Assembly (NCBI RefSeq): GCF_030412785.1
Contig: NZ_CP125295.1
Coordinates: 434,001-498,000 of the forward strand
Length of the DNA: 64,000 nt
Source of the DNA: Paraburkholderia sabiae
GTDB lineage: Bacteria; Pseudomonadota; Gammaproteobacteria; Burkholderiales; Burkholderiaceae
Reading direction: 5' to 3'
A program made the position numbers and the translations under genes. The notes beneath the pieces were generated by a model. The model saw only the letters and a list, made by a program, of their open reading frames with translations, searched no databases and had not been told where the DNA came from. Of the stretch, positions 5,517 through 57,160 are shown one piece after another. Numbering within the stretch: position 1 is the stretch's first letter; each line of letters opens with the position of its first letter.

Positions 5517-5653
5517 TCTGGGCGCGCGCCCCGGGGCGCTGGTTGCTGAGGGGAAAGGGGTAATGATAGCGCTAAGTGTGTCCTTGGCGGACGGGGTGGG
5601 GTTTGGGGTTGGGTTTTGGTTTTGGGTTTCGGGTTTTGATTTTGGGGTTTTAT
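5517..5653. other. ilvA upstream region with strong G/T bias
   Basis: This 137-bp stretch should hold the ilvA promoter and leader on the minus strand. Its plus strand is extremely keto-rich: in 5591-5650 I count G 28, T 28, A 2, C 2. No clear sigma-70 boxes or attenuator hairpin could be picked out. The bias is the left-hand half of the skew that flanks every copy of the repeat. Confidence 0.6.
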
Positions 5654-6176
5654 TGGCATCCGCGTTGACGTATCGGTTTATTAGCGTTGCCCCTGTGCGG
5701 GGCGGCACTTACTTTCTTTGCCGCCGCAAAGAAAGTAAGCAAAGAAAGCGGCTTCAAACCTCCGGTGCCTGCCAGGATAACGCTGCGCCATGCCGCAGTT
5801 GAGCTGTCGCGCAGCGACGCAAACACTCCGTAGCAAGCCCGCAGTCAGGCGCGCGCGGCGCGAAAGATGACATCCACCTGGAGCACATTCGGTCAGCACG
5901 TTTTTTTGCATTTGCCCTCGGTTGACTGCGGCGGTATGTGCTCCAGACTGTGTGGGGATTTTCGCCGTGCGCGGTTGACTGCGGGCTTTCTACAGAGTGC
6001 GGACATCGCTGCGCGATAGCTCAACTGCAGCATGCCGAAGCGTTATCCTGGCAGGCACTGGAGGTTCAAAAGCGGCTTTCTTTTGCCTACTTTTCTTTGC
6101 CGCTGGCAAAGAAAAGTAGGTGCCGCCCCGCACAGGGGCAACGCTAGCAAACCGATACGGCAACGCGGATGCCAGC
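5654..6176 (+). repeat. Palindromic intergenic element, copy B
   Basis: A 523-bp copy between the divergent genes ilvA and the 1377-aa oxidoreductase. The left-arm hairpin is the short-T variant (CTTACTTTCTTTGC with its complement) and the right-arm hairpin is the long-T variant (CCTACTTTTCTTTGC). The core (about 5860-5967) includes GATGACATCCACCTGG and GGCGGTATGTGCTCC. The left end is TGGCATCCGCG and the right end CGCGGATGCCA. GCGACCAGCGTCGCAGAC follows at 6192-6209, as after copy A. Confidence 0.9.
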
Positions 6177-6601
6177 GAAAACCAAAGCATGGCGACCAGC
6201 GTCGCAGACAACCCAGAAAAGCCAAACCGCAAACCCTTACGCCACGTAGGTCCACGCGCGAACGCGCGCCCCCATCCTGCGGTAGAATCATGGTTTGGAA
6301 CAAGGATCGGAAGATCGGATGATGCACTGGCAGCCTCGGATCGCCCATTTGATGCCCGTCCCGCGTGAGGCTCGCCCCGCGGCGCAGCGGCATGTGCGGC
6401 ACGCACGATCGCGTAGCTATATCTGAGCGCCGCGAGGCGACCGGCCACCCACGTTCCAGCCATATCCCCGGCGATCCCGGGCGCTGGCCTGCCGGTTGCG
6501 GCTTCGCACACTAGAAAGATTTCCAGCATTGCGCCCCACGCGCACTGTCAGCGAGCCCCAGCGATGAGCGCACGCCGCTGACTTACCCGAGTCGTCCAAA
6601 C
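6177..6601. other. Gene-free stretch upstream of the 1377-aa oxidoreductase
   Basis: The first 60-100 bases right of copy B are A/C-rich (6181-6240: A 23, C 22, G 11, T 4). The rest should contain the promoter and leader of the downstream gene. TAGAAT at 6283-6288 resembles a -10 box but has no matching -35. A 35-codon frame at 6319-6426 starts with two ATGs but has no convincing ribosome binding site and an unremarkable basic product, so I do not call it a gene. Confidence 0.4.
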
Positions 6602-9600
6602 ATGAACGCACCTCAAGTTTTCGATCCGAACGGCGCCGCCGCCTCCGTTGCCGCCGATACCGAAGCGCGTCTGCGCGAAATCCCATACAACTACACGTCG
6701 TTCTCCGACCGCGAAATCGTCATCCGTCTGCTCGGCGACGAAGCCTGGGCCGCGCTCGACGAACTGCGCGCGGAGCGCCGCACCGGCCGCTCGGCACGCA
6801 TGCTGTATGAAGTCCTCGGTGATATCTGGGTCGTGCGTCGCAATCCTTACCTGCAGGACGACCTGCTCGACAATCCGAAGCGCCGCGCGCTGCTGATCGA
6901 AGCGCTGAATCACCGTCTCACGGAAATCGAAAAGCGCCGCCGCGCCGATCTCGTCGAACATGCCGACGACGCCGGTGTCGGACGTGCCGCGCGCGTCGAA
7001 ACGCTCGTCGGCGCCGCGCGCCGCGCCGTCGATGCGTTCGCCGCCGAATTCGACAAGATGGCCGACTTGCGACGTCGCGCGACCAAAGTGCTGGGCCGTC
7101 AGACGCAGAAGGACAACATCCGCTTCGACGGCATCGCACGTGTCTCGCACGTGACGGACGCGACCGACTGGCGCGTCGAATACCCGTTCGTCGTGTTGAC
7201 GCCGGACACGGAAGCCGAAATCGCCGGCCTCATCAAGGCGTGTTTCGAACTCGGCCTGACCGTGATTCCGCGCGGAGGCGGCACGGGCTACACGGGCGGC
7301 GCGGTGCCGCTCACGCCGTTCTCGGCCGTCATCAACACGGAAAAGCTCGAACAGCTCGGCGCCGTCGAACTGACGGAACTGCCCGGCGTCGCGCACAAGG
7401 TGCCGACCATTTTCTCGGGCGCGGGCGTCGTCACGCGCCGCGTCACGGAAGCGGCCGAGCAGGCCGGCTACGTGTTCGCTGTCGATCCGACTTCGCTGGA
7501 CGCTTCCTGCATCGGCGGCAATGTCGCGATGAACGCGGGCGGCAAGAAGGCCGTGCTGTGGGGCACGGCGCTCGATAACCTCGCCTGGTGGCGCATGGTC
7601 GACCCGGAAGGGAACTGGCTCGAAGTCACGCGCCTCGATCACAACCTCGGCAAGATTCACGACATCCCCGTCGCACGTTTCGAACTGAAGTGGTTCGACG
7701 GCGAGTACGCGCCGGGCGAAAAGCTGCTGCGCACCGAACTGCTCGACATCGAAGGCCGCCGCTTCCGCAAGGAAGGTCTTGGCAAGGACGTAACGGATAA
7801 ATTCCTCGCGGGTCTGCCGGGCATCCAGAAGGAAGGCTGCGACGGTCTGATCACGTCGGCGCGCTGGGTGCTGCACAAGATGCCCGCGCACACGCGCACG
7901 GTTTGCCTCGAATTCTTCGGCCAGGCGCGCGAGGCGATTCCGAGCATCGTCGAAATCAAGGACTATCTGTTCGAAACGTCGAAGCAGGGCGGCGCGATTC
8001 TCGCTGGCCTCGAACACCTCGACGAACGCTATCTGCGCGCCGTCGGCTACGCGACGAAGAGCAAGCGCAACGCCTTTCCGAAGATGGTGCTGATCGGCGA
8101 TATCGTCGGCAACGATGCGGACGCGGTGGCGACGGCTACGTCCGAAGTGATCCGCATGGCCAATGGCAAGAGCGGCGAAGGCTTCGTGGCGGTCAGCGCC
8201 GAGGCTCGCAAGCGCTTCTGGCTCGACCGCAGCCGCACGGCCGCGATCGCGAAGCACACCAACGCGTTCAAGATCAACGAAGACGTCGTGATTCCGCTCA
8301 ACCGCATGGGCGAATACACGGACGGCATCGAGCGCATCAACATCGAGCTGTCGATCAAGAACAAGCTGCAACTGGTCGACGCCCTCGAAGCGTTCTTCAG
8401 GGGCGGCAAGCTGCCGCTCGGCAAGAGCGACGACGCGAACGAAATCCCGAGCGCCGAACTGCTCGAAGACCGCGTGCAGCAGGCGCTGGAACTGCTCGCG
8501 CACGTGAAGAAGCGCTGGGAATTCCTGCGCGACAGGCTCGATCTGTCATTGCGCGAGGCGCAGCACTATCTGGTGCAGCTCGGCTATGCGGGACTCGCGG
8601 AGAAATTCGCGGACCGCGTCGACGATCAGCCGGACGCGAACGTCTTCCACATCGTGCAGGACCGTACGGTGCGCGTGTCGTGGAAGCAGGAAATCCGCGC
8701 GGAACTGCGCCAGATCTTCAACGGCGGCGAGTTCAAGCCGATCCTCGACGAAGCGCAAGCCATCCACAAGCAGGTGCTGCGCGGCCGCGTGTTCGTCGCG
8801 CTGCACATGCACGCGGGCGACGGCAACGTTCACACGAACATCCCCGTCAACTCCGACAACTACGAGATGCTGCAGGACGCGCATATCGCAGTGGCGCGCA
8901 TCATGAAGCTTGCGCGTTCGCTGGATGGCGTGATTTCCGGCGAGCACGGCATCGGCATCACGAAGCTCGAATTCCTGACGGAAGACGAGATCGGCGAATT
9001 CCGCGCGTACAAGCAGCGCGTCGATCCGCACGGCCGCTTCAACAAGGGCAAATTGCTCGAAGGCGCGGACCTTCGCAACGCGTACACGCCGTCGTTCGGA
9101 CTGATGGGTTATGAATCGCTGATCATGCAGCAGTCCGATATCGGCGCGATTGCCGATTCGGTGAAGGACTGCCTGCGCTGCGGCAAGTGCAAGCCGGTTT
9201 GCGCAACGCACGTGCCGCGCGCGAACCTGCTGTACAGCCCGCGCAACAAGATTCTCGCGACGTCGCTGCTGGTCGAGGCGTTCCTGTACGAAGAACAGAC
9301 GCGCCGCGGCGTGTCGATCAAGCATTGGGACGAGTTCAACGACGTCGCCGATCACTGCACCGTCTGCCACAAGTGCGTGACGCCGTGCCCGGTGAAGATC
9401 GACTTCGGCGACGTCACGATGAACATGCGCAATCTGCTGCGCAAGATGGGCAAGAAGAAGTTCAACGCGGGCAACGCGGCGGGCATGTTCTTCCTCAACG
9501 CGACGAATCCGCAGACCATCAACCTCGCGCGCACCGCGATGATGGGCGTCGGCTACAAGGCGCAGCGCCTCGGCAACGAGGTGCTGAAGAAGATCGTCAA

Positions 9601-10735
9601 GAAGCAGACGGCGCGTCCGCCCGCGACCACGGGCAAGCCGCCCGTGATGGAGCAGGTGATCCACTTCGTCAACAAGAAGATGCCGGGCAACCTGCCGAAG
9701 AAAACGGCGCGCGCGTTGCTCGACATCGAAGACAACAAGATCGTGCCGATCATCCGCAATCCGAAAACGACGACCGTCGATTCGGAAGCGGTGTTCTACT
9801 TCCCCGGCTGCGGTTCCGAGCGCCTGTTTTCGCAGGTCGGTCTCGCGACGCAGGCGATGTTGTGGGAAGCGGGCGTGCAGACGGTGCTGCCGCCGGGCTA
9901 TCTGTGCTGCGGCTATCCGCAGCGCGGCTCGGGCCAGTTCGACAAGGCCGAGCAGATCGTCACGGATAACCGCGTGCTGTTCCATCGCGTCGCGAATACG
10001 CTGAACTATCTCGACATCAAGACGGTGGTGGTGTCGTGCGGCACGTGTTACGACCAGTTGGCCGGGTACGAATTCGAGAAGATTTTCCCGGGCTGCCGGA
10101 TCATCGACATCCACGAATTCCTGCTGGAGAAGGGCATCAGGCTCGACGGCGTAACGGGCACGCGCTACATGTATCACGACCCGTGTCACACGCCGATCAA
10201 GACGATCGACCCGGTCAAGCTCGTCAATGAACTGATGGGCACCGAGAAGAACGACGGCTACAAGATCGAGAAGAACGATCGCTGCTGCGGCGAATCGGGC
10301 ACGCTCGCAGTGACGCGTCCGGACGTGTCGACGCAGGTGCGCTTCCGCAAGGAAGAGGAAATCCGTAAGGGTGCCGCGAAGCTGCGCAACATCCCGGTCG
10401 TCGCCGATGCGGGCGCGAACGCGATCAACATGGCGAACGCGGCAGCGGGCGCGGCGGGTGCGCCTGCCGGTTCGGTGCTGAAGGCCGGCGACGGTCCGCA
10501 GCCGAACGGCGCGAACGGCGCGAACGGCGCGAACGGCGCGAACGGTGCCACGGACGTCAAGATCCTGACGAGCTGCCCGTCCTGCCTGCAGGGCCTGTCG
10601 CGCTACAACGAAGACGCGAACGTCGAAGCGGACTACATCGTGGTCGAGATCGCGCGTCACGTGCTCGGCGACAACTGGATGGCGGATTATGTCCAGCGCG
10701 CGAACAATGGCGGAATCGAGCGCGTGCTGGTCTAA
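6602..10735 (+). CDS. Fused FAD-linked oxidoreductase / iron-sulfur (GlcD-GlcF-like) protein with N-terminal DUF3683
   Basis: A 1377-residue fusion of a 2-hydroxyacid dehydrogenase flavoprotein with its electron-transfer subunit. The N-terminal 170 residues resemble DUF3683. The FAD-binding type-4 domain contains [13 protein letters not shown] near residue 223, and a FAD-oxidase C-terminal domain ends with the GEHGIG motif near 780. Two [4Fe-4S] motifs follow, [11 protein letters not shown] (about 857) and [11 protein letters not shown] (about 919). Two cysteine-rich CCG repeats come next: [16 protein letters not shown] and DPCHTP/CCGESGT. The last part has CPSCLQG after an NGA-repeat linker. 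By family it should oxidise a D-2-hydroxyacid such as D-lactate or glycolate and pass electrons towards quinone; the exact substrate cannot be read from sequence. Confidence 0.85.
10505..10549 (+). repeat. In-frame 9-bp tandem repeat (AACGGCGCG, five units)
   Basis: Four exact AACGGCGCG units plus one diverged unit encode a run of Asn-Gly-Ala triplets in the linker before the C-terminal cysteine motif of the 1377-aa oxidoreductase. Because nine bases are three codons, slippage would change linker length without breaking the frame. Confidence 0.9.
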
Positions 10736-10767
10736 TGGCACGATAAAGGTTCCGCTCGAGGACGACG

Positions 10768-11196
10768 ATGGACTGTATCTTCTGCCGTGAGGACGGCGGC
10801 GATGTGCTGTGGCAGGACGACACACTGCGTGTCGTCCTCGCCGACGAACACGACTATCCCGGCTTTTGCCGCGTGATCTGGAACAGGCACGTCGCCGAGT
10901 TCTCCGATCTGGGCGACGGCGATCGCGATCGCGTGATGCGCGTGGTGTACGCCGTCGAGCGCGCGATCCGTCGCATCCTGCAACCCGTCAAGGTGAACCT
11001 GGCGAGCCTCGGCAACCAGGTTCCGCATGTTCACTGGCACGTGATCCCGCGTTTTTCCAACGACGCGCATTTCCCGCTGCCCATCTGGGCGCCGCGTCAG
11101 CGCACGGTATCGGAAGCGATGCTGTCGCAACGGCGCGCACAGGCCACGTTGCTGCGCGAAGCGGTACGCGGCGAAATCGAACACGCTCTCGCCTGA
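10768..11196 (+). CDS. HIT family protein (histidine triad nucleotide hydrolase)
   Basis: A 142-residue HIT protein; the family hydrolyses nucleotide phosphoramidates, dinucleoside polyphosphates or related adducts. The histidine triad is visible as HVHWHVIPRF (about residues 87-96). The N-terminal MDCIFCREDGG has two cysteines that may bind zinc, as in many bacterial HIT proteins. It begins 32 bases after the oxidoreductase gene and ends seven bases before the DUF971 gene, so all may be co-transcribed towards ubiE. Confidence 0.85.
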   Translation: MDCIFCREDGGDVLWQDDTLRVVLADEHDYPGFCRVIWNRHVAEFSDLGDGDRDRVMRVVYAVERAIRRILQPVKVNLASLGNQVPHVHWHVIPRFSNDAHFPLPIWAPRQRTVSEAMLSQRRAQATLLREAVRGEIEHALA

Positions 11197-11203
11197 GGTC
11201 ATC

Positions 11204-11617
11204 ATGAGTGGATTGACACCCGACACGCCGGTCCCCACCGGCGTCGTCGTTCATGCCGTATCGCGCGTACTCGAACTGCAGTACGCGAACGGCAACAGTT
11301 ACCGCGTGCCGTTCGAACTGATGCGCGTCTTTTCGCCTTCCGCCGAAGTGCGCGGCCACGGTCCCGGCCAGGAAACGCTGCAGACGGGCAAGCGCGAAGT
11401 GACGATCACCGCGCTCGAAGGCGTCGGCAACTATGCGTTGCAGCCCACTTTCTCCGACGGCCACAACACGGGCATCTATTCGTGGGACCTGTTGTGGGAT
11501 CTCGCGACCCGTCAGGACGAACTCTGGGCCGAGTATTTCGACAAACTTCAGGCAGCAGGCGTCGAGCGCGACGCACCGATGCCCGTATCCAGTCCAGCGC
11601 ACGGCCACAGACACTGA
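11204..11617 (+). CDS. DUF971 / gamma-butyrobetaine hydroxylase-like N-terminal domain protein
   Basis: A 137-residue protein consisting only of the DUF971 domain, the N-terminal domain of gamma-butyrobetaine hydroxylase. Visible family features are [19 protein letters not shown] near the start and the segment ending [14 protein letters not shown] (about residues 87-100). Some DUF971 proteins take part in iron-sulfur assembly or Mrp-type proteins, but nothing here fixes a role. Located 70 bases upstream of ubiE on the same strand. Confidence 0.8.
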
Positions 11618-11687
11618 TACGATTCGGCCGGCATGCCGCCTGGGTGCGGCGCAACAATTTTCAGAATACGCGAAAGGACGAAGCGCG

Positions 11688-12419
11688 ATGACCAAAACCC
11701 ACTTCGGCTATCAGACAGTCGACGAACAGGAAAAAGCGAAGAAAGTGGCCGGTGTGTTCCACTCGGTCGCCTCCAACTATGACCTGATGAACGACCTGAT
11801 GTCGGGCGGGCTGCACCGCGCGTGGAAGGCGTTCACGATTGCGCAGGCCAACGTGCGGCCGGGCTACAAGGTGCTCGACATCGCGGGCGGCACGGGCGAT
11901 CTGTCGAAAGCATTTGCGAAGCGGGCGGGCGAAACGGGCGAAGTCTGGCACACGGACATCAACGAATCGATGCTGCGCGTGGGCCGCGATCGTCTGATCG
12001 ACAAGGGCGTCATTACGCCGGCGCTGCTGTGCGACGCCGAGAAGATCCCGTTCCCGGACAACTACTTCGACGTGGTCACCGTGGCATTCGGCTTGCGCAA
12101 CATGACGCACAAGGACGCCGCGCTCGCCGAAATGCGTCGCGTGCTGAAGCCGGCGGGGCGTTTGCTCGTGCTGGAATTCTCGAAGGTCTGGGATCCGCTC
12201 AAAAAGGCTTACGACGTCTATTCTTTTAAGGTGCTTCCGTGGCTCGGCGATCGCTTTGCCAAGGACGCCGACAGCTATCGCTACCTCGCGGAATCGATCC
12301 GGATGCATCCGGACCAGGAAACTTTAAAAACGATGATGGAACAAGCTGGCCTCGACGCCGTCAAATATTACAATTTGTCAGCTGGCGTGGTAGCCTTGCA
12401 TGTGGGGACGAAATACTAA
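11688..12419 (+). CDS. ubiE: Ubiquinone/menaquinone C-methyltransferase UbiE
   Basis: A 243-residue SAM-dependent C-methyltransferase of ubiquinone biosynthesis. The start at [20 protein letters not shown] is the family N-terminus; a longer in-frame opening upstream overlaps the DUF971 gene and is rejected. The SAM motif is [11 protein letters not shown] (about residue 64), and the family signature [16 protein letters not shown] and the [14 protein letters not shown] end are present. It opens the ubiE-Tim44-ubiJ-ubiB cluster, so the group supports quinone synthesis at the inner membrane. Confidence 0.97.
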
Positions 12420-12456
12420 TGTCCCTAACCTCCCGTTTTTAAAGGAAATTGAGAAA

Positions 12457-13452
12457 ATGTCTGATTCGAATCTGTCATCTCGTTGTAAGGTTAAGGGGGC
12501 TTGGGCGAGGAGAATCGGACTGATCGCGATGGTCGGCCTGATCTCTGTCGGCACGCTGGCCTCGCTCGACGCCGAAGCGAAACGCATGGGCGGCGGCCGC
12601 AGTATGGGGCGTCAGTCGAACATCACCCAGCCGCATCAGCAGACGGCGCCGTCGCCTTCGCAGTCGCCGGGCGCGCCGTCGCAGGCAATGCAGCAGCAGC
12701 GTCCCGCGACGCCGCCGCCTACGCCCGCCGCGCAGCCTAACCGTTCGCGCTGGCTGGGACCGATCGCCGGTCTCGCGGCAGGTCTCGGTATCGCCGCGCT
12801 GCTGTCGCACTTCGGCCTGGGCGAAGCGTTCGCCGGCATGATGTCGAACCTGATCGTGATCGCGCTGATCGCGTTCGTCGCCATCTGGCTGATCCGCAAG
12901 TTCGTTAGCCGCAAGCGCGATGCGCAGTCGCCCGCTTACGCAGGCGGCTCGCCGACGCTGAACGCGGGCGGCACGGGCTACTCGCAGGAGCCGCGCTACA
13001 CGGCGCCTCCCACGGGCTCGTACCTCGGACCGCAAGGCAATCCGCTGACGACGCCCGATGTCGCCGCTACACCGACAGTTCCGGCTGGCTTCGATTCGGA
13101 AGCTTTCCTGCGCAACGCGAAGGTCTACTTCGTGCGTCTGCAGGCGGCGTGGGATGCCGGCAATATGGACGACATCCGTGAATTCACGACGCCTGAAATG
13201 TTCGCCGAAGTGCGGGTGGATCTGAGCTCGCGCGGCGCCGACAAGAACCAGACCGACGTCGTGAAGCTCGACGCCGATCTGCTGGGCGTCGAGGATCGCG
13301 GCAGCGAGTACCTGGCGAGCGTGCGTTTCCACGGCCTGATCCGCGAAACGTCGGGCGGCTCGGCGGAACCGTTCGAAGAAATCTGGAACCTGTCGAAGCG
13401 CACGGGCGAAGGCTGGCTGCTCGCGGGCATCCAGCAAGTCAATCTTCACTGA
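12457..13452 (+). CDS. Tim44-like domain membrane protein
   Basis: A 331-residue protein whose start MSDSNLSSRC follows AAAGGAAA. An N-terminal hydrophobic segment (GLIAMVGLISVGTLASLDA, about residues 20-38) acts as signal or anchor. A low-complexity Gln/Pro/Ser region (about 45-100) precedes a second hydrophobic region (about 104-145, including LIVIALIAFVAIWLIRKF). The C-terminal 140 residues match the Tim44/MBA1 fold. In mitochondria that fold links the import motor to membranes; in bacteria its role is unclear. Its place between ubiE and ubiJ suggests, but does not show, a part in assembling the membrane quinone-synthesis complex. Confidence 0.8.
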   Translation: MSDSNLSSRCKVKGAWARRIGLIAMVGLISVGTLASLDAEAKRMGGGRSMGRQSNITQPHQQTAPSPSQSPGAPSQAMQQQRPATPPPTPAAQPNRSRWLGPIAGLAAGLGIAALLSHFGLGEAFAGMMSNLIVIALIAFVAIWLIRKFVSRKRDAQSPAYAGGSPTLNAGGTGYSQEPRYTAPPTGSYLGPQGNPLTTPDVAATPTVPAGFDSEAFLRNAKVYFVRLQAAWDAGNMDDIREFTTPEMFAEVRVDLSSRGADKNQTDVVKLDADLLGVEDRGSEYLASVRFHGLIRETSGGSAEPFEEIWNLSKRTGEGWLLAGIQQVNLH

Positions 13453-13513
13453 TCCCGTAAAGGATTAGCCGTTCGGCTGAGTCAGGCTCGCAGCGAACGG
13501 ACGTTACAATAGG

Positions 13514-13548
13514 AACCCGCGTCGGCAGTCGCCGGCGCGGGTTTTCTC
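13514..13548 (+). terminator. Candidate intrinsic terminator after the Tim44-like gene
   Basis: The stem AACCCGCG pairs with CGCGGGTT, enclosing a GC-rich loop with partial further pairing, and TTTTCTCTTT follows. It lies just before the ubiJ start at 13561, so it may attenuate rather than fully separate ubiE-Tim44 from ubiJ-ubiB. Confidence 0.65.
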
Positions 13549-28006: not shown

Positions 28007-28529
28007 CTGGCATCCGCGTTTTGTTATCGGTCTATTGGCGTTGCCCCTGTGCGGGGCGGCACCTACTTTTCTTTGCAGCGGCAAAGAAAAGTAGGCAAAA
28101 GAAAGCCGCTTCAAACCTCCGGTGCCCGCCAGCAAAACGCTTCGGCATACCGCAGTTGAGCTGTCGCGCAGCGACGCAAACACTCCGTAGAAAGCCCGCA
28201 GCCAGGCGCGCGTGTCGTGAAAGATGACATCCACCTGGGGCACATTCGGTCGGCTTGTATTGTTCGCCCGCCGTCGGTTTACGGCGGTATGTGTTCCGGA
28301 CGGTGTGGGTTTTTCGCGCCGTGCGCGGTTGACTGCGGGCTTTCTACGGAGTGCGGAGGTGACTGCGCGATAGCTCAAAGAACGTGCGCTGTGCTGTTAT
28401 CCTGGCGGGCACCGGTGGTTCAAGAGCGGCTTTCTTTTGCCTACTTTTCTTTGCCGCTGCAAAGAAAAGTAGGTGCCGCCCCGCACAGGGGCAACGCTAG
28501 CAAACCGATACGGCAACGCGGATGCCAGC
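28007..28529 (+). repeat. Palindromic intergenic element, copy C
   Basis: A 523-bp copy between two same-strand genes, the thiolase and an enoyl-CoA hydratase. Both arm hairpins are the long-T variant (CCTACTTTTCTTTGC). The core (about 28210-28322) contains GATGACATCCACCTGGGGCA and an internal CCGCCG/CGGCGG hairpin. The plus strand is G/T-rich to the left and A/C-rich to the right. It fills most of the 632-bp gap between the two genes. Confidence 0.9.
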
Positions 28530-36690: not shown

Positions 36691-37234
36691 GCTGGCATCC
36701 GCGATTTACTGGCATCCGCGTTGACGTATCGGTTTATTAGCGTTGCCCCTGTGCGGGGCGGCAGTTACTTTCTTTGCCGCCGCAAAGAAAGTAACCAAAG
36801 AAAGCGGCTTCAAACCTCCAGTGCCCGCCAGGATAACGCTGCGCCATGCCGCAGTTGAGCTGTCGCGCAGCGACGCAAACACTCCGTAGAAAACCCGCAG
36901 TCAGGCGCGCGCGGCGCGAAATGTGACATCCACGTGGGGCACATTCGGTCGGCTTGTTTTTGGTGCGTGCCGCCGGTTGATTGCGGCGGTATGTGCTCCA
37001 GACTGTGTGTGGGTTTTCGCGCCGTGCGCGGTTGACTGCGGGCTTTCTACAGCGTGCGGACGTTGCTGCGCAATCACTCAAAGAACGTGTGCCGTGGCGG
37101 CATCCTGGCAGGCACCGGAGGTTCAAAAGCGGCTTTCTTTTGCCTACTTTTCTTTGCCGCTGCAAAGAAAAGTAGGTGCCGCCCCGCACAGGGGCGACGC
37201 ATGAAGCACCGATACGAAACCGCGGATGCCAGCG
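36691..37234 (+). repeat. Palindromic intergenic element, copy D
   Basis: A 544-bp copy between the convergent ABC exporter and murU genes. The left end is doubled: CTGGCATCCGCG occurs at 36692 and again at 36709, so one boundary was added or duplicated. The left hairpin is the short-T variant (GTTACTTTCTTTGC) and the right one the long-T variant. The core (about 36916-37027) is nearly identical to that of copy F. Confidence 0.9.
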
Positions 37235-46910: not shown

Positions 46911-47412
46911 GCTGGCATCCGCGATTTCGTATCGGTTGTTCATGCGTTGCCCCTGTGCGGGGCGGCAGTTACTTTCTTTGCCGCCGCAAAGAAAGTAACC
47001 AAAGAAAGCGGCTTCTAACCTCCGGTGCCTGCCAGCATAGCGCCGCGGCATGCCGCAGTTGAGCTGTCGCGCCGCGACGCGAACACTCCGTAGAAAGCCC
47101 GCAGTCACGCACGCGCGGCGTGAAGGGTTACCCTTGATTGGGGCACATGGGTCGCCTTGGTTTTGCGTCGGTATGTGCTTCGAAGTTGTGTGGTGTTGTC
47201 GCGCCGTGCGCGGTTGACTGCGGGCGCGTTCTACGGAGTGCGGACGTCGCTGTGCGACGGCTCAAGTGCGGCAGGCCGCGGCGCTATGCTGGCGGGCACC
47301 GGAGGTTTGAAGCGGCTTTCTTTGGTTACTTTCTTTGCCGCGGCAAAGAAAGTAACTGCCGCCCCGCACAGGGGCAACGCGAGCAAACCAAAGCGAAATC
47401 GCGGATGCCAGC
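46911..47412 (+). repeat. Palindromic intergenic element, copy E
   Basis: The most diverged and shortest copy (502 bp), between the convergent gloA and YgjP-like genes. Both arm hairpins are the short-T variant, with GTTACTTTCTTTGC pairing to GCAAAGAAAGTAAC. The core (about 47117-47212) has lost part of the sequence seen in other copies and reads GAAGGGTTACCCTTGATTGG at its start. An additional outer inverted repeat surrounds it. Confidence 0.88.
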
Positions 47413-48391: not shown

Positions 48392-49150
48392 TCAGATTCG
48401 GGCGGCGGCGGGCGTGTTCTGCTCGTCGCCATAAGCGGCTGGATCGATGCGGCGCATCTCGGCTTCGATCCACGTTTCGACGCGCGTGTTCACTTCGTCG
48501 GGCGTGAGCCCGGTGGTGTCGATCGGTTTGCCGATCGACACTGTGACTATACCCGGATATTTCATGAACGAGTTGCGCGGCCACACACGTCCCGCGTTAT
48601 GCGCGATAGGCACCACGACCGCGCCCGTCGCGACGGCGAAGCGCGCGCCACCCGTCTTGTACTTACCCTGCTTGCCCGTCGGCGTGCGTGTGCCTTCCGG
48701 AAACATGATCACCCACGCGCCTTCCGACATGCGCCGCGCGCCTTGTCGCGTGACCGACGCGAACGCGTTCTTGCCTTCCTTGCGGTCGATGTGAATCATC
48801 TTCAGCAAGCCGAGCGCCCAGCCGAAGAACGGCACATACAGCAACTCGCGCTTGAACACGTAGCACAGCGGACGCGGCATCAGCGCAGGAAACGCGAGCG
48901 TCTCCCACGCGGACTGATGCTTCGACAGCAGCACGGCGGGACCGTTCGGCAGATTGTCCATGCCGCGAATTTCATAGCGGATGCCGTTCAGCCAGCGCAC
49001 CACGTTGAGTGTCGTGCGGCACCAGCCGACCGCCATCCAGTAGCGGTTGTCGGCGCGCATGAACGGAAACGCGAAGAAGCACGCGGTCGCGTATGGAATC
49101 GTGAAGACCGCGAAAAAGATCAGCAGCAACAGCGAACGGATGAAGCGCAT
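48392..49150 (-). CDS. 1-acyl-sn-glycerol-3-phosphate acyltransferase PlsC-like
   Basis: A 252-residue membrane acyltransferase that makes phosphatidic acid from lysophosphatidic acid. The hydrophobic N-terminus (SLLLLIFFAVFTIPYATACF, about residues 5-24) anchors it. Motif I is SKHQSAWETL, where Glu replaces the usual Asp of HX4D, a form I have seen in other proteobacterial members. Motif III is FPEGTRTPTG. It follows gmhB by 37 bases. Confidence 0.88.
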   Translation of the reverse strand: MRFIRSLLLLIFFAVFTIPYATACFFAFPFMRADNRYWMAVGWCRTTLNVVRWLNGIRYEIRGMDNLPNGPAVLLSKHQSAWETLAFPALMPRPLCYVFKRELLYVPFFGWALGLLKMIHIDRKEGKNAFASVTRQGARRMSEGAWVIMFPEGTRTPTGKQGKYKTGGARFAVATGAVVVPIAHNAGRVWPRNSFMKYPGIVTVSIGKPIDTTGLTPDEVNTRVETWIEAEMRRIDPAAYGDEQNTPAAARI

Positions 49151-49187
49151 CGGCGTGGTCAGTGAGGTGTGGACGCGCTACGGCGCG

Positions 49188-49745
49188 TCATTCTTGTTCT
49201 TCGGCGAGAAAGTCGAGAGCGAACGCGCGCAGATCATCATGCACGCGCGTGCCCTCGGGCAAACCGCCTGCTTCGAGCGTCTTCTTGCCTTTGCCCGTCA
49301 GCACCAGATGCGGGACGAAACCGAGCGCCGCACCTGCCTGCAGATCGCGCAACGAGTCGCCGACGCACGGCGTGTCTTCCGGGTCGATCTCGAAGCGCTC
49401 CGCAATCATCTTCAGCATGCCGGGCTTCGGCTTGCGACATTCGCAGTGATCGTCGGCCGTATGCGGGCAGAAGAACACGGCGTCGATGCGCCCGCCGACG
49501 GCAGCCGCCGCGCGATGCATCTTCAGATGCATCGCGTTGAGCGCATCCATGTCGAACAGGCCGCGGCCGATGCCCGACTGATTCGTCGCGATCGCCACGC
49601 GATAACCCGCCTGGTTGAGTCGCGCGATCGCTTCGAGGCTGCCGGGCAGCGCGACCCACTCGTCGGGCGATTTGATGAACGCATCCGAGTCGACGTTGAT
49701 CACGCCGTCACGGTCGAGCACCACCAGTTTCTTTGCAGTCGGCAT
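49188..49745 (-). CDS. gmhB: D-glycero-beta-D-manno-heptose-1,7-bisphosphate 7-phosphatase GmhB
   Basis: A 185-residue HAD phosphatase of the ADP-heptose pathway for LPS inner core. The catalytic motif is LDRDGVINVDSDAF (about residues 9-22). The zinc-binding CPHTADDHCECRKPKPGM (about 93-110) is characteristic of GmhB. It begins ten bases after glyS and is probably co-transcribed with glyQ-glyS and plsC. Confidence 0.95.
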   Translation of the reverse strand: MPTAKKLVVLDRDGVINVDSDAFIKSPDEWVALPGSLEAIARLNQAGYRVAIATNQSGIGRGLFDMDALNAMHLKMHRAAAAVGGRIDAVFFCPHTADDHCECRKPKPGMLKMIAERFEIDPEDTPCVGDSLRDLQAGAALGFVPHLVLTGKGKKTLEAGGLPEGTRVHDDLRAFALDFLAEEQE

Positions 49746-49755
49746 GATGCGTCGC

Positions 49756-51855
49756 TCAGGCTGCGAGGCGCGAAATATCCGCGACGCAGTTCATCTGTTG
49801 ATGCAGCGCGCCGAGCAGCGCAAGGCGATTCGCGCGCAGCGCTGGGTCTTCCGCGTTGACCATCACGTCGTTGAAGAACGTATCGACGGGTTCGCGCAGC
49901 GCCGCGAGCGCCGACAGCGCGCCCGTGTACTGACGCTCGGCCAGTTGCGACTGCACACGCGGCGCAACCTGTTCGAGCTGCGCATGCAGCGCCTTTTCGG
50001 CCGCTTCGATGAGCAGCGCGGTCTGCACGCCGTTCGCGTTCGCGCCTTCCGACTTCTTCAGGATGTTCGAAATGCGCTTGTTCGCCGCTGCCAGCGACGC
50101 CGCTTCCGCGAGCGCCGCGAATTCGCGCACGGCATCCAGACGCGCGACGATATCGTCGAAACGCGTGGGGTTCAGCGCGAGCACGGCATCCACTTCACCC
50201 GCCGAATAGCCGCGTTCACGCAGCATGCCGCGCAGACGGTCGATACAGAATTCGTAAATGGCCTGCGTCGAATCGGCGACGTTCGGCACGTTCGCGAATT
50301 GCGCGTTTGCTGCGCGCAGCAGTTCGACGAGATCGATCGGCAACTGCTTTTCGACCAGAATGCGCAGCACGCCGAGCGCGTGACGGCGCAGCGCGAACGG
50401 ATCTTTTTCGCCCGTCGGTTGCAGGCCGATGCCCCAGATCCCGACCAGCGTTTCAAGCTTGTCGGCGAGCGCGACGACCGTGCCCGTTGCCGTCGACGGC
50501 AACGCGTCGCCGGAGAAGCGCGGCTGATAGTGCTCCGAGCACGCGAGCGCGACTTCTTCCGGCTCGCCGTCGTGGCGCGCGTAATACGTGCCCATCGTGC
50601 CTTGCAACTCGGGGAATTCGCCGACCATGTCGGTCAGCAAGTCGGCCTTCGCGAGATGCGCGCCGCGCTTTGCGAGCGCGACGTCGGCGCCGATCATCTG
50701 CGCAATTGCGCCAGCGAGTGCTTCGACGCGCTCGACGCGTTGCAGCGCCGAACCCAGCTTGTTGTGATAGACGACGTTCGCGAGTTGCGGCACACGATCG
50801 GCGAGCGGACGCTTCTTGTCCTGCTCGAAGAAGAACTTCGCATCGGCGAGACGCGGACGCACCACACGTTCATTGCCTTCGACGATTTCACCAGGCGTCT
50901 TCGTCTCGATGTTCGACACGATCAGGAAGCGCGAGCGCAGCTTGCCGTTCGTGTCGGTGAGCGCGAAATACTTCTGGTTGGTCTGCATCGTGAGGATCAG
51001 GCATTCCTGCGGCACCTGCAGGAACTCGTCCTCGAACTTGCACGCGTACACGACAGGCCATTCGACCAGCGACGTCACTTCGTCGAGCAGCGACTCGGGC
51101 ATCACGACCTCGTCGCCGTTCGCCTGCGCGAGCAGATGCGTGCGGATCGTTTCCTTGCGGTCCGCGAAGCTCGGCACGACATGGCCCTTGTGCATCAGCG
51201 TGTCGGCGTAATGATCCGCGTGCTGGATCTGCACGAAACCTTCGGACAGGAAGCGATGGCCGAGCGTGGTGTCGTCGGCATCGATGCCGAACGCGGTGAC
51301 GGGCACGATCTCTTTGTCGTGCAGCACCGTCAGACGATGCACCGGGCGCACGAACTGCACGTTCGAGCCGTCCGGACGCTGATACGTCATCACCTTCGGA
51401 ATGGGCAGCTTGGCGAGCGTTTCGTCGAGCGCGGCTTGCAGACCTTCGGCGAGCGTCGCGCCGGGTGCGGCGTAGCGCAGAAAGAACGCTTCGGCCTTGC
51501 CGTCGTTCGCGCGTTCGAGATCGTTCACCGAGAAATCGGGGAAGCCGAGCGCCGCGAGTTTCTTCGCGAGCGGCGGCGTGGGCTGGCCGTTCGCATCGAG
51601 TGCGACGGAGACGGGCAGCACTTTTTCGCGCACGTGTTTCTCGGGCGCGACGTCGCGCACGTTCCTGATCGTGACAGCGAGGCGGCGCGGCGTCGCGTAA
51701 CGCTCGAACTGCAGTTCGCCTTCGATCAGATCGCGCGCCGCGAGACGTTGCGCGATGCCTTCCGCGAACGCATCGCCGAGACGCGCGAGCGCCTTCGGCG
51801 GCAGTTCTTCCGTCAGCAGTTCGACGAGCAGGGTGGCTTGATGGGATTGCGTCAT
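49756..51855 (-). CDS. glyS: Glycine--tRNA ligase beta subunit
   Basis: A 699-residue beta subunit of the alpha2beta2 bacterial glycyl-tRNA synthetase, opening [20 protein letters not shown], the family N-terminus. The body contains the B3/B4-like and HD-type regions ([20 protein letters not shown]) and a C-terminal anticodon-binding domain. It needs GlyQ for activity; the two genes are separated by 15 bases. Confidence 0.97.
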
Positions 51856-51870
51856 GTCTTCTTGGTCTCG

Positions 51871-52878
51871 TCAGTCCTGGTCGATCTTGCGTTCGACTTT
51901 GAGCGGCGGCGCCCACGCGGGCATCGCGGCGTCCTGTTCGTCGGTGGTGAGGCCAGGCACGCCGTGCACGGGATTGCCGAGCATCGGGAAGCCGAGCTTT
52001 TCGCGCGAGTCGTAATACGCCTGTGCAACGAGGCGCGACAGCGCGCGAATGCGACCGATGTATGCCGCGCGCTCCGTCACGGAAATCGCGCCGCGCGCGT
52101 CGAGCAGGTTGAACGTGTGTGCTGCCTTCAACACGAGTTCGTAGGCGGGCAGCGCGAGCGGCACTTCGATCATGCGCTTCGCTTCGCTTTCGTAGCTGTT
52201 GAAGAACGTGAACAGCAGATCGGTGTTCGCGTGCTCGAAGTTGTACGTCGACTGTTCGACTTCGTTCTGGTGATACACGTCGCCATACGTGAGGCGGCGC
52301 ATTTCAGGACCGTTCGGACCTTGTTCTTCCCACTCGGTCCAGATCAGGTCATAGACGTTCTCGACCTTCTGCAGATACATCGCGAGACGTTCGAGACCGT
52401 ACGTGATTTCACCGAGCACCGGCTTGCAGTCGAGGCCGCCCACTTGCTGGAAGTAGGTGAACTGCGTCACTTCCATGCCGTTGAGCCACACTTCCCAGCC
52501 GAGGCCCCACGCGCCGAGCGTCGGGTTTTCCCAGTCGTCCTCGACAAAGCGCACATCGTTCTGCTTCAGATCGAAGCCGAGGGCTTCGAGCGAGCCGAGG
52601 TACAGGTCGAGGATGTTTTCCGGCGCCGGCTTCAGCACGACCTGATACTGGTAGTAGTGCTGCAGACGGTTGGGGTTCTCGCCATAACGGCCGTCCTTCG
52701 GGCGGCGCGACGGCTGCACGTACGCGGCGCGCCACGGCTCGGGGCCGACCGCGCGCAGGAACGTATGGACGTGGGAAGTGCCCGCGCCGACTTCCATGTC
52801 GATCGGCTGGAGCAGCGCGCAACCCTGCTTGTCCCAATAGGATTGCATCGTCAGGATGATTTGCTGAAACGTGAGCAT
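51871..52878 (-). CDS. glyQ: Glycine--tRNA ligase alpha subunit
   Basis: A 335-residue catalytic alpha subunit, starting [20 protein letters not shown]; an in-frame ATG 23 codons upstream gives a non-family extension and is rejected. Conserved segments include [20 protein letters not shown] (about residues 28-47) and the class II core [13 protein letters not shown]. It ends with a short charged tail. A 227-bp gap, GC-rich and without an evident gene, separates it from lnt. Confidence 0.97.
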
Positions 52879-53105
52879 GAAGTGCCTTGAAGGGTGCCTT
52901 TCAGGCAGGACGCGGACGCCGTGCGGCCCGCGGGGCGCGCCGGCCATGCTGGCCGTTCACCCCGTAGCCGGCCGGCTGCGCGGCCCAGTGCTGTAAAACC
53001 CTGAATTTTACCGGATTGCCGGTGGCTTGAGACTTTCTGGGGCCTGGTGGTTCAACGGGGGCGCGCGTTTGTGCTTGTTGCTTTGCGCTGCCCCGCCGTG
53101 AGTTC

Positions 53106-54782
53106 TCAGCTGTTGCCGTTCTTTCGCTTGCGGCCCGGACCGAAGGCGAAACCAAATGCGAGGAACAGCAGCGACACGGCAAGCACGGTGTTATTGCCGC
53201 TCGTCACGTACGGCGTATTGCCCGTCGTGCCTTGAATGGTCGCTTCGATCGAGCCGGCCGTGAACGTCGGCATGCGCGCGATCACGTTGCCGTGCGCGTC
53301 GATGGCGGCCGTCGCGCCCGTGTTCGTTGCGCGCAGCATCGGGCGTCCCGTTTCGAGCGAACGCATGCGCGCGATCTGCAGATGTTGATCGAGTGCGATC
53401 GTATTGCCGAACCACGCGAGGTTCGTCGAATTCACGAGCACGCCCGCCGGCGTGTCGCTCTCGCGCACCGTGCGCGCGATTTCCTCGCCGAAGATGTCCT
53501 CGTAGCAGATATCGACGGCGATGGGCTGGTTGTGCACGATGAACGGCTTCTGCACGGGCGCGCCGCGCGCGAAATCGCCGAGCGGAATGTTCATCAGGTT
53601 CACGAACCAGCGAAAGCCCCACGGCACGAACTCGCCAAACGGCACGAGATGATGCTTGTCGTAGCGATACACGCCCGTCTGACCCGGCGTGACGCCGAAC
53701 AGGCTGTTCGTGTAATCGACGACGCGTCCTTCCGGCGTGATCTTGCCGCCGATCGCGCCGAACAGAATCGACGAATGCGTCGAATCGGCGAAATTGCGCA
53801 CGGCCAGCGCGAACGGCTCGGGAATGGCCTGCGCGAGCACGGGAATCGCCGTTTCCGGTGTGACGATCAGATCGGCGGGTTTCTCGGTGATCATCCGCTG
53901 ATATTCGTCGATGGCCGCCTTCACGCCCGATGCTTCGAACTTCATGTCCTGTTTCACATTGCCTTGCAGCAGGCGCACGCTCAGCGATGCGTTGGCGGGC
54001 GTCGTCCACGAGACGAGCGGCAGCAGCAGGCCGGCCGCGATCAGCGCGACGGCGATCACGGCGGGCGTCGCGATGCGAGTGGAACGCGGCGTGGTTTCGG
54101 TTTTTGGGGCGCGCGTACGCAGAAGCGCTTGCGCGATCAGCGCGGCAGCGAGCGCCATGATCCAGCCGACGCCGTACACGCCCACCACGGGTGCGAATCC
54201 GGCAAACGGGCCGTCGACCTGCGCATAGCCGCTCGCGAGCCACGGGAAGCCGGTGAACACGGTGCCGCGCAGCCATTCACCGACGGCCCACGCGCTCGCG
54301 AAGGCGAACGCGCCGTGCCAGGTCGGGGAAAACGGCGTGTTGTCGACGAGTTTGCCGTTGCGCGCGTGCCCCGCGCAGAACGACCAGACGCCAGCTGCGA
54401 GCGCCGGATAAACGGCGAGATACAGCGAGAACAGCACGAGCGCCGCGCCCGCGAGTGGTGCCGGCATGCCGCCGTAGAAGTGCATGCTCACGTACAGCCA
54501 CCACACGCCCGTCACGTAGTTGCCGAAACCGAACGCGAAGCCGGTGAGGGCGGCGCTTTTCCAGCCTGTCGTGCGCGTGAGCCACGCGAAGAAGAAGACG
54601 AAGATCGCGAGTTCGAGCCAGCCGCCGTGCGGAGTCGGTGCGAACGAGAGCGTGTTGAGCGCGCCGACGGCGGCGGCGGCGAGGTAGTGCCACCACGGCA
54701 ACGTCCGGGCGCGCCCGATGTTTGCATCGGCTGCGTCGGGCGTCACGCCGCGGCGCAGACGGGAAATGATCGGGTCGGCCAT
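53106..54782 (-). CDS. lnt: Apolipoprotein N-acyltransferase Lnt
   Basis: A 558-residue inner-membrane enzyme that adds the third acyl chain to lipoproteins. About seven hydrophobic segments cover the N-terminal 240 residues and one more the C-terminus. The carbon-nitrogen hydrolase domain has the catalytic Glu in IVTPETAIPVLA, a Lys near KHHLVPFGEFVPWG and the Cys in DICYEDIFGEE. It starts 36 bases after corC, as in the E. coli ybeX-lnt pair. Confidence 0.96.
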   Translation of the reverse strand: MADPIISRLRRGVTPDAADANIGRARTLPWWHYLAAAAVGALNTLSFAPTPHGGWLELAIFVFFFAWLTRTTGWKSAALTGFAFGFGNYVTGVWWLYVSMHFYGGMPAPLAGAALVLFSLYLAVYPALAAGVWSFCAGHARNGKLVDNTPFSPTWHGAFAFASAWAVGEWLRGTVFTGFPWLASGYAQVDGPFAGFAPVVGVYGVGWIMALAAALIAQALLRTRAPKTETTPRSTRIATPAVIAVALIAAGLLLPLVSWTTPANASLSVRLLQGNVKQDMKFEASGVKAAIDEYQRMITEKPADLIVTPETAIPVLAQAIPEPFALAVRNFADSTHSSILFGAIGGKITPEGRVVDYTNSLFGVTPGQTGVYRYDKHHLVPFGEFVPWGFRWFVNLMNIPLGDFARGAPVQKPFIVHNQPIAVDICYEDIFGEEIARTVRESDTPAGVLVNSTNLAWFGNTIALDQHLQIARMRSLETGRPMLRATNTGATAAIDAHGNVIARMPTFTAGSIEATIQGTTGNTPYVTSGNNTVLAVSLLFLAFGFAFGPGRKRKNGNS

Positions 54783-54818
54783 TGTTGCGCGGTCGGCTTC
54801 AGAAAAACACGGGATGGA

Positions 54819-55715
54819 TCAGGTTTGCACGTGCTGGGCGTCGCGTTCGCGCTGGCCAGCGAGGGGATCGCGGCGCACGAGCAGCATGTGGATCTGGCGT
54901 GCATCGGCGCGCAGCACTTCGAAAATCAGGTCGTCGAGCCGCACTTTCTCGCCGCGATGCGGCACGCGTCCAAAATGGTGCGTGACCAGGCCGCCGATCG
55001 TATCGACTTCCTCGTCGGAGTAATGCGTGCCGAATTCCTCGTTGAACTGCTCGATTTCGGTGAGTGCGCGCACGCGATAGCGACCGTCGGGCGACGCGAT
55101 GATGTTGCCGCTTTCCTCGTCGAAATCGTATTCGTCCTCGATGTCGCCGACGATTTGCTCCAGCACGTCTTCGATCGTAATCAGGCCCGCGACGCCGCCA
55201 TATTCGTCGACGACGATGGCAAGGTGATTACGGTTCACGCGGAAATCATGCAGCAGCACGTTGAGGCGCTTGGATTCGGGGATGAACACGGCGGGGCGCA
55301 GCATGCCGCGCACGTCGGCTTCGTCTTCGGCGTAGTAGCGCAGCAGGTCTTTCGCCAGCAGCACGCCGATGACGTTGTCGCGGTTGCCTTCGTACACGGG
55401 GTAGCGCGAGTGCGCTTTTTCCAGCATGTACGGGATGAATTCGTCTGGGGAGTCCGCGATGTTGATCGCGTCCATCTGGGCGCGCGGGATCATGATGTCG
55501 CGGGCGCAGAGCTCGGAAACCTGGAACACGCCTTCGATCATCGACAGCGAATCGGCGTCGATGAGATTGCGTTCGTGCGCGTCCTGCAGGATTTCGAGGA
55601 GTTCGCCGCGAGAATCGGGCTCGGGCGAGATGAAGTCGGTCAATCGCTCGAGGAGGGAGCGTTTTTCCTGGGGTTTGTCGCTGGTATGGCGTCGACTGGG
55701 ATACGAATCGTTCAT
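54819..55715 (-). CDS. corC: CorC/HlyC-type CBS domain protein (YbeX)
   Basis: A 298-residue protein without the N-terminal membrane domain of larger CorC relatives. It starts at MNDSYPSRRHTSDKPQ, and an upstream in-frame extension is rejected. Two CBS domains (about residues 70-195, including MIPRAQMDAI and YPVYEGNRDNVIGVL) precede a CorC-HlyC C-terminal domain (GRYRVRALTEIEQFNEEFGT). YbeX is linked to magnesium/cobalt homeostasis and ribosome metabolism. Repeat copy F lies upstream, between it and chaC. Confidence 0.93.
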   Translation of the reverse strand: MNDSYPSRRHTSDKPQEKRSLLERLTDFISPEPDSRGELLEILQDAHERNLIDADSLSMIEGVFQVSELCARDIMIPRAQMDAINIADSPDEFIPYMLEKAHSRYPVYEGNRDNVIGVLLAKDLLRYYAEDEADVRGMLRPAVFIPESKRLNVLLHDFRVNRNHLAIVVDEYGGVAGLITIEDVLEQIVGDIEDEYDFDEESGNIIASPDGRYRVRALTEIEQFNEEFGTHYSDEEVDTIGGLVTHHFGRVPHRGEKVRLDDLIFEVLRADARQIHMLLVRRDPLAGQRERDAQHVQT

Positions 55716-55936
55716 GGTGGTGCGCCCGGAAAGCTGGGCGCGCTGTTGCAGAGCGTTAAGGATACACCACGGGTGTGGCGGGACCGTGTCCCGGCGCACT
55801 TTCCGCGGGTTGCTTGGTTTTTATCCTACCGGATATCTGCGGTCGACAGGGGTGTCGACAAAATTTGGTCTTTTGGCACTTATTATTCGCGATGCGGTTT
55901 GGTTTTTGATTTTTGGTTTTGGGTTTTTGGATTTTT
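55716..55936. other. corC upstream region with G/T bias
   Basis: This 221-bp stretch should contain the corC promoter on the minus strand. Its final 50 bases before copy F are strongly keto-rich (55891-55940: T 29, G 16, A 3, C 2). No other feature is apparent. GTCGAC-GGGGT-GTCGAC near 55840 is a minor local repeat. Confidence 0.5.
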
Positions 55937-56462
55937 GCTGGCATCCGCGTTGACGTATCGGTTTATTAGCGTTGCCCCTGTGCGGGGCGGCAGTTACTTT
56001 CTTTGCCGCCGCAAAGAAAGTAACCAAAGAAAGCGGCTTCACACCTCCGGTGCCTGCTTGGATACCGCTTCGGTATGCCGCAGTTGAGCTATCGCGCAGC
56101 GACGCAAACACTCCGTAGAAAGCCCGCAGTCAGGCGCGCGCGGCCCGAAATGTGACATCCACGTGGGGCACATTCGGTCGGCTTGTTTTTGGTGCGTGCC
56201 GCCGGTTGATTGCGGCGGTATGTGCTCCAGGCTGTGTGTGGTTTTCGCGCCGTGCGCGGTTGACTGCGGGCTTTCTACGGAGTGCGAACGTCGCGGCGCG
56301 ACAGCTCAACTGCGGCATGCCGAAGCGGCATCCTGGCAGGCACTGGAGGTTCAAAAGCGGCTTTCTTTTGCCTACTTTTCTTTGCCGCTGCAAAGAAAAG
56401 TAGGTGCCGCCCCGCACAGGGGCAACGCGTGAAGCACCGATATGAAATCGCGGACGCCAGCG
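55937..56462 (+). repeat. Palindromic intergenic element, copy F
   Basis: A 526-bp copy inside the minus-strand cluster, between ybeY-chaC and corC-lnt. The left hairpin is short-T (GTTACTTTCTTTGC) and the right one long-T. The core (about 56143-56257) differs from that of copy D at only about two positions. To the right, 56461-56520 is A 33, C 17, G 6, T 4. Confidence 0.9.
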
Positions 56463-56506
56463 CAGCAAAAAACAAAAACAAAAAACAAAAAAGCAAAACC
56501 GAACCC

Positions 56507-57160
56507 TTATCCACACCTGGATAAAAGCGCCTCCAACGCCCGATCCGGCATCCCACTCTCCCGCAAAGCGGCGACTGTGCGACTCACATAGTCAAGCGTA
56601 GTCCCATAGCGCCCCGAAGCACACCCCAACACGGCCCGAACGACATCATCAGAAAGCTTCCCGGTATAAGAAGCAACATCACGCCGCATGACGAACGCGA
56701 GCGCATCAACGCGCCGCCCATCGGCGAGTACACACGGCAGCCATGCAGGCCGATACGACCCCATCGCCATTTCGCGCCGCCACAGCGCGTCGAGATGCGG
56801 CATCGCGCCCTCGGCGGCGAGGCGAAATGCAATGCCGCTGCAAGAACCGCCGCGATCGAGCGCGAGCACGAGTCCCGGCTGCTCCGGCGTGCCGCGATTG
56901 ACGCGCGACCACAGATACAGCCCACGGTGATACCCATGCACCCGCGAGCGCAACGCTTCGACCGTCGGCAGCCCGGGGTTCCAGATCAGCGATCCATAGC
57001 CGAACAGCCACAAATCACTCTTGCGATCCCAGTCGCGCAGCGTGCAATCGAGCGACACACGCAATTCGTCGTCCGTCAGCAGACGCGATTCGCCCAGCGA
57101 CGGCGGATAGCCGGGGCAGGGCGGAAGCGTCGACGGTGGCGTTGAAACAGGTTGGCTCAC
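56507..57160 (-). CDS. ChaC-type gamma-glutamylcyclotransferase
   Basis: A 217-residue protein of the ChaC family, which degrades glutathione to 5-oxoproline and Cys-Gly. The substrate motif appears as FGYGSLIWNPGL (about residues 53-64). The family's catalytic glutamate should lie in the LAAEGAMPHLDALWRREM region. It lies 82 bases after ybeY on the same strand but is not part of the usual miaB-lnt set, so it was probably inserted there. Its 3' end towards copy F is A/C-rich on the plus strand. Confidence 0.88.
   Translation of the reverse strand: MSQPVSTPPSTLPPCPGYPPSLGESRLLTDDELRVSLDCTLRDWDRKSDLWLFGYGSLIWNPGLPTVEALRSRVHGYHRGLYLWSRVNRGTPEQPGLVLALDRGGSCSGIAFRLAAEGAMPHLDALWRREMAMGSYRPAWLPCVLADGRRVDALAFVMRRDVASYTGKLSDDVVRAVLGCASGRYGTTLDYVSRTVAALRESGMPDRALEALLSRCG

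Follow-up and report, generated by a model that had tools for sequence, protein, structure and literature searches.

The 64,000-nucleotide stretch analysed here (the window, C1:434001-498000 of a 9.9 Mb genome, G000) carries six copies, A to F, of one family of quasi-palindromes of about 520 bp (~0.52 kb) with TGGCATCCGCG-like ends, lying near genes for a thiolase, an ABC transporter, an NTP-transferase and a ChaC-like protein (Table 1). The halves of copies B to F are.765-.823 mutually identical and, as ssDNA, copy F is predicted to fold nearly end to end into one hairpin (-231.6 kcal/mol, z = -25). The core arms of copy A are still adjacent despite an IS insertion, and copy B was found only in G000 and G020 among the six genomes compared. 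An Rfam search gave no match for the element.

Table 1. Elements, flanks and skewed gene ends in the window (K is read on the strand running toward the element; positions are those of the window).
Feature	Position	Strand	Remarks
Element copy A	407..2211	.	split by IS481-like insertion; TGGCATCCGCG ends
Transposase of the IS within copy A	918..2057	-	rve integrase core, LZ_Tnp_IS481
Left flank of B	5591..5653	+	G+T-rich; 5591-5650 G28 T28 A2 C2
Element copy B	5654..6174	.	divergent gene context per codon-usage gene calls
Right flank of B	6175..6240	+	A+C-rich on +, G+T-rich on -; 6181-6240 A23 C22 G11 T4
Thiolase gene left of C, last 100 codons	27669..27971	+	third-position K +0.48
Element copy C	28008..28527	.
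ABC transporter gene left of D, last 100 codons	36370..36672	+	third-position K +0.68
Element copy D	36710..37231	.
NTP-transferase gene right of D, last 100 codons	37262..37564	-	third-position K +0.60
Element copy E	46913..47410	.
Left flank of F	55891..55938	+	G+T-rich; 55891-55940 T29 G16 A3 C2
Element copy F	55939..56459	.	single end-to-end hairpin fold
Right flank of F	56460..56520	+	A+C-rich; 56461-56520 A33 C17 G6 T4
ChaC-like gene right of F	56507..57160	-	last 100 codons K +0.50

The family extends well beyond the window. A search of all 9.9 Mb of G000 gave 132+132 arm matches, and 864 kb of this genome contain 69 element records, 66 two-armed and 3 one-armed. At least one arm match was found in 48 of the 58 sampled genomes of the genus, G000 included (range 0 to 261 per strand), and, family-wide, in 18 of 120 genomes and 4 of 25 genera. 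REPIN/MITE-type elements are short, dispersed, intergenic and made of inverted repeats. The present elements resemble them in all these respects, with the small size and terminal inverted repeats of MITEs, and differ from them in being nearly full-length quasi-palindromes of 0.5-0.65 kb across genomes, with variable ends. The inter-arm spacing is mostly ~440 bp in G000 copies, and mostly 564-572 bp in the window-equivalent copies of G020, G053, G042 and G001. In 7 of the 66 two-armed G000 elements, the arms lie 1720-1725 bp apart, and the one examined, copy A, carries the IS481-like element; since long arm spacings also occur in G020, G042, G001 and G085, insertion of the IS may be site-specific. 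The GTGTTG arm variant is the commonest among the G018 matches listed, and GCGTCG is frequent among those listed for G085. The first 100 bp of the Paraburkholderia flanks consist partly of recurring motifs, namely TTTTTG/GCTTTT tracts and a TCTGCGACGC...GTCGC hairpin. The latter, with a T-rich tail, stands immediately outside many elements, and also at some sites from which the element is missing in G092; it could represent either a terminator or some older repeat. As to the replicon itself, C1 of G000 measures 6.58 Mb, against 3.5-4.0 Mb for C1 in relatives, and in the sampled stretches its GC skew flips sign twice, at 1.9-2.15 Mb and at 3.5-3.8 Mb, which points to a fused replicon or a misassembly.

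The preliminary description had reported a mirrored switch from G/T-rich to A/C-rich DNA centred on the copies, and the seven base counts that it quoted around copies A, B, C, E and F proved exact on recount. We measured this switch as K = (GT-AC)/N, read on the strand running 5'->3' toward the element (the toward strand), in 864 kb of G000, a sample made of the window and 40 stretches of 20 kb. Out of 133 sides, 127 were kept in the flank profile, which omits one element whose arms stand only 58 bp from each other, as well as the sides with less than 2.2 kb of flank. In the first 60 bp, K is positive on 127/127 sides (median +0.47, minimum +0.07), and only 0.2% of 5000 random 60-mers attain +0.40. 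From the edge outward, K falls from +0.49 (0-50 bp) to +0.33 (50-100), +0.24 (100-150), +0.17 (300-350), +0.11 (500-550) and +0.03 (950-1000), with almost the same profile on left and right sides, and the arms themselves are without skew (K -0.03, 27 elements). The skew reaches ~1 kb and not, as first estimated, 200-300 bp into the neighbouring genes: at 86 gene ends facing an element, aligned on the stop codon, K drops from +0.25 to +0.04 across 1 kb. Convergent gene ends without the element had been proposed as the control that could overturn this association, and they carry no equal skew. At gene ends located >1.5 kb from any element (99 convergent, 246 codirectional), K over the final 1 kb of the gene stays between -0.02 and +0.04 (-0.07 immediately past the stop of the codirectional ones). 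Genes were called by a codon-usage script that overlooked some strongly skewed genes, so that some nearest-gene distances are too long. The ChaC-like gene is one of those overlooked, probably because of its skew.

The switch is also carried by synonymous sites, where K within 500 bp is positive on 115 of 117 G000 sides (measured baseline +.019/-.006). With 133 sides, the T/C odds at these sites are raised ~12-fold at the element edge and decay over ~250 bp; an exponential, the sole shape fitted, gives lengths for the C->T excess of 254+-21 bp in G000 and 233+-25 bp in G051. The A->G odds are raised just 2-3-fold, over a range of 500-620 bp that is longer than that of C->T, which is unexpected under one exposure profile. 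The excess appears with every neighbouring base (ln odds ratio 1.04-2.39) and is smallest at sites preceded by G or followed by C, a context effect confounded by codon structure. Near elements, codon usage is strongly biased and amino-acid make-up modestly so.

Gene direction allowed us to weigh the role of transcription, which could expose the non-template strand at polymerases pausing in genes that run into the palindrome; 91 of the 127 sides do face the 3' end of a gene. We examined two-fold sites on those 112 of the 127 sides whose closest called gene lay no more than 200/400 bp away. Between 1.5-3 kb and 0-150 bp from the element, toward-pointing genes drop from.697 to.178 in C/(C+T) and from.384 to.185 in A/(A+G). 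In genes pointing away, the coding strand mirrors this, A/(A+G) rising from.378 to.66 (150-300 bp) and.75 (0-150 bp, n=28), and C/(C+T) from.687 to.79 (300-450),.825 (150-300) and.74 (0-150, n=50). The sign of the skew on the toward strand is thus the same for either gene direction, and in away-pointing genes the transitions lie on the template strand. Of the 28 elements that have a toward gene on one side and an away gene on the other, 23 entered a paired comparison, with a baseline-corrected K at 150-500 bp of.417 for toward and.317 for away sides. K on the away side exceeds zero in 22 of these 23 elements, yet it is about a quarter weaker (paired p=.061), so that a minor effect of gene orientation or transcription is possible. 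As the main cause, transcription is contradicted by the away-pointing genes, and the control convergent ends have almost no skew; we hold it to be very improbable.

A second explanation that needs no damage at the element is that it inserts at pre-existing G/T-to-A/C switches, or that the skew is selected, for instance through Chi-like sites. Convergent genes are a frequent setting of the elements (28 of 59 paired contexts), and single element-free orthologs of the thiolase and ABC transporter ends attain K.27-.28 in their last 150 bp. On average, however, orthologous gene ends without the element are close to zero (80 named loci): the element-free thiolase (72) and ABC (73) ends have a mean K of.078 and.088 over their final 150 bp and of -.05 to +.04 deeper in the gene, whereas 5 of 6 element-bearing ones attain +.25 to +.40, the sixth, from Trinickia terrae, showing +.07. 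Where an element adjoins the end of the NTP-transferase gene (three loci), K is +.08 to +.23 over the final 150 bp and +.16 to +.25 at 150-450 bp; the corresponding values in 67 loci without element are.007 and.03-.04. The Trinickia terrae copy (L143, downstream of the thiolase) is an exception to the footprint and adjoins largely unskewed genes, with five of six near bins between -.05 and +.07 and one at +.33, and its halves are.818 identical, similar to the window copies; it may be a young insertion. Moreover, the decay at synonymous sites is smooth, and Chi enrichment was rejected, as GCTGGTGG was observed 9 times for 8.9 expected from composition.

We then polarised substitutions in orthologous flanks of six genomes, as had been suggested in the preliminary description, at the sites common to relatives (A, C, D, E and F, with site B left out). 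Codons differing in their first two bases or in amino acid among the six genomes were left out, as were sites with outgroup disagreement. On the toward strand, C>T amounts to.102 at 0-300 bp and.113 at 300-600 bp, against.033 beyond 3 kb. On the five element-bearing branches this represents 81/747 near (<=600 bp) versus 284/8728 far (>3 kb) (p=2.3e-18). In the same regions G>A is unchanged (.027,.022 and.029; 49/2036 near versus 255/8658 far). For polarised A>G there is no such rise (3/38 and 3/50 near elements versus 52/1100 far, with very few ancestral A sites near), and the A->G shift is therefore one of base composition only. Synonymous divergence is higher near elements than far from them, both between G000 and G020 (.221 versus.113) and between G053 and G042 (.164 versus.114). 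The footprint is mutational. Copies split by an IS do not differ from intact ones (C>T 12/112 versus 69/635), a weak control since the insertions are undated and the core arms of copy A are adjacent.

In one relative, G092, whose thiolase gene is 90% identical, an element cannot be recognised at any of the six window sites; genome-wide it has 17+26 arm matches. Judged by eye, A, B and C retain clear remnants of the terminal sequences, D and F partial ones and E none, and G092 thus appears to be a natural loss of the elements at these sites. On its branch, the neighbourhood of the old sites has no asymmetry (C>T 8/135, G>A 21/426, p=.66). T/(C+T) over the first 300 bp is.48 there, compared with.57-.61 for G000, G053, G042 and G001; the difference in C>T from intact sites (8/135 versus 69/635) is not significant (p=.11). 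Conversely, G020 has kept its elements, yet its own branch is without C>T excess (5/132 near) and its T/(C+T) is.51, a point in favour of target choice or selection. Against it, substitutions continue on the element-bearing branches and are symmetric in G092, and we rate this explanation as the most improbable of all those considered.

The footprint is also found in six further genomes, two of them of another genus. Among the genomes that bear it are G051 (84% identity at the thiolase gene), G085, and the other-genus G172 and G236, whose element ends are different. When the seven genomes, G000 included, were analysed uniformly with complete elements only (282 sides), the C->T odds excess at the edge ranged from 6.1 to 15.0 and the decay length from 167 to 353 bp, and K was positive on 244 of the 252 sides having >=30 sites. 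The 12 other-genus flanks viewed are without the TGGCATCCGCG end and without the TCTGCGACGC...GTCGC hairpin, T-runs occur in them, and the footprint is kept in those genomes.

What has to be explained is therefore a strand-specific substitution on the toward strand, strong for C->T and seen in composition for A->G, on both sides, with a decay of ~250 bp and in either gene direction. The loss of C and A had earlier been read as the mark of exposed 3' overhangs. The polarity of this reading holds on either side and whichever way the gene points, and the loss of A is the weaker of the two and visible in composition only. Indeed, loss of C, and more weakly of A, from the toward strand on both sides is the polarity expected of exposed 3'-ended strands, and the transitions lie on the strand ending 3' at the centre, with a switch of strand across it, as at strand-coordinated break flanks.

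Three known systems help to interpret it. A and C deaminate more in single-stranded DNA, and mitochondrial gradients likewise combine C->T and A->G, most strongly at third codon positions, the difference being that they follow distance from replication origins, whereas here the effect is centred on every dispersed element (PMC3269015). In yeast expressing APOBEC3A, mutation clusters with a single switch, C mutated 5' of the centre and G 3' of it on one strand read, were attributed to bidirectional resection (PMC6786661). Those clusters are acute, follow irradiation and depend on an added deaminase; our elements show a substitution-level footprint, at fixed natural bacterial sites, on a ~250 bp scale and with no deaminase known. 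In S. cerevisiae, fragile motifs made of long inverted repeats raise mutation in the genes on both sides, the reporters lying up to 8 kb away and translesion polymerase zeta being involved, a likeness that does not concern strand polarity (PMC3681665). From these three observations together we take recurrent single-strand exposure as the best reading: exposure of the 3'-ended flank strand, by break resection or in gaps left by stalled polymerases, with deamination-type transitions, is well supported.

Damage to exposed DNA might be replaced by errors of repair synthesis, if the toward strand were repeatedly resynthesised and G:T mispairs of the polymerase left both C->T and A->G changes in the newly made DNA strand. 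Both transitions are indeed visible in the composition of one strand, and a translesion polymerase was needed for inverted-repeat flank mutagenesis in yeast (PMC3681665). However, the odds are raised ~12-fold for C->T and only 2-3-fold for A->G, and on either side the polymerase would have to travel in the direction of the element, which makes this alternative improbable.

Replication gaps are a strong rival to breakage, the same strands being exposed. A polymerase stalled at a template hairpin would leave the template on its 5' side unfilled, to deaminate before filling, and a break would be unnecessary. By reasoning, the unfilled strand is the toward strand for both leading and lagging templates, which gives the right polarity on both sides, and unskewed arms beside strongly skewed flanks fit a base-paired stem. 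Lagging gaps should be commoner, yet neither at 0-300 bp (p=.49) nor at 300-600 bp (p=.39) do lagging sides depart from leading ones, and a slight excess of lagging over leading appears at 600-1000 bp (pooled p=.045, uncorrected). We regard such gaps as a serious, though still tentative, possibility.

For breakage, the cutter first proposed was SbcCD, and this part of the proposal found no support. SbcD was found above the family cut-off in only 6 of 58 genus genomes, G000 not among them, and in none of the eight genomes G000, G172, G236, G048, G085, G092, G020 and G051. SbcC was above cut-off in 0/8, a cut-off that just 1 of 14 controls passes, and RecB was above it in 8/8 genomes searched. 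The footprint is present, with a similar shape, in the SbcD-positive G018 and G043, G018 being among the weaker, and in five SbcD-negative genomes. Gene content and the footprint of SbcD-positive genomes do not support SbcCD as the cutter, and the complex seems dispensable for the footprint. SbcD is patchy in the genus, with no evident relation to element number, the range in SbcD-positive genomes being 0 to 261 arm matches on each strand. Cells that lack SbcCD tolerate long palindromes better.

In E. coli, chronic cleavage of a 246-bp palindrome by SbcCD was without mutagenesis, in an assay of rifampicin resistance and not of the flanks (PMC4213011), a result that speaks against breakage as the source of the footprint. 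The likeness, if breaks occur here, is a chronic breakage at a hairpin-forming palindrome that is repaired without losing the palindrome; the window genome differs in having no SbcD above cut-off, and the E. coli case in its lack of mutagenesis by that assay.

Ectopic break repair is expected to result in concerted evolution, which could also be produced by re-insertion. Copies of G000 are.842 alike within the genome, against.734-.755 for orthologs, and by this comparison concerted evolution is clear in G000 only. In G053 the value is.892 within the genome, slightly above.854-.873 between genomes (G001, G042), and in G020, G042 and G001 within-genome and ortholog similarities overlap.

Taken as a whole, the explanation that we favour is that of a chronic fragile site. 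The flank strand ending 3' at the element would repeatedly become single-stranded and deaminate. With less certainty, the extruded or hairpin palindrome would undergo two-ended breakage by a nuclease other than SbcCD, followed by 5'->3' resection and by homologous-recombination repair, sometimes templated by another copy. We give this complete scheme, from fragile palindrome and exposed flank to break, resection and repair, slightly less than an even chance.

The footprint is real, strong and strand-resolved around a natural palindrome family and, as far as our searches reach, undescribed: a full-text literature search, most subscription journals being outside its coverage, found no description of the elements or of the footprint. 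The fragility of palindromes is known, but what it costs natural bacterial chromosomes in mutations over the long term has been difficult to observe. Many copies per genome, seven genomes in two genera and a natural loss offer a direct test of how single-strand exposure shapes adjacent genes. In addition, the skew around the elements can mislead gene finding. A further proposal, which we consider possible but on the unlikely side, is that the elements are chronic break sites tolerated by the host, with a candidate SbcCD-independent palindrome nuclease and occasional copying between sites by break repair, the scars recording the break frequency of each site. If this is true, they would provide a natural, genome-wide signature of break-flank mutation in bacteria at the scale of evolution, and more than 100 dispersed sites would act as local mutators of the adjoining genes.
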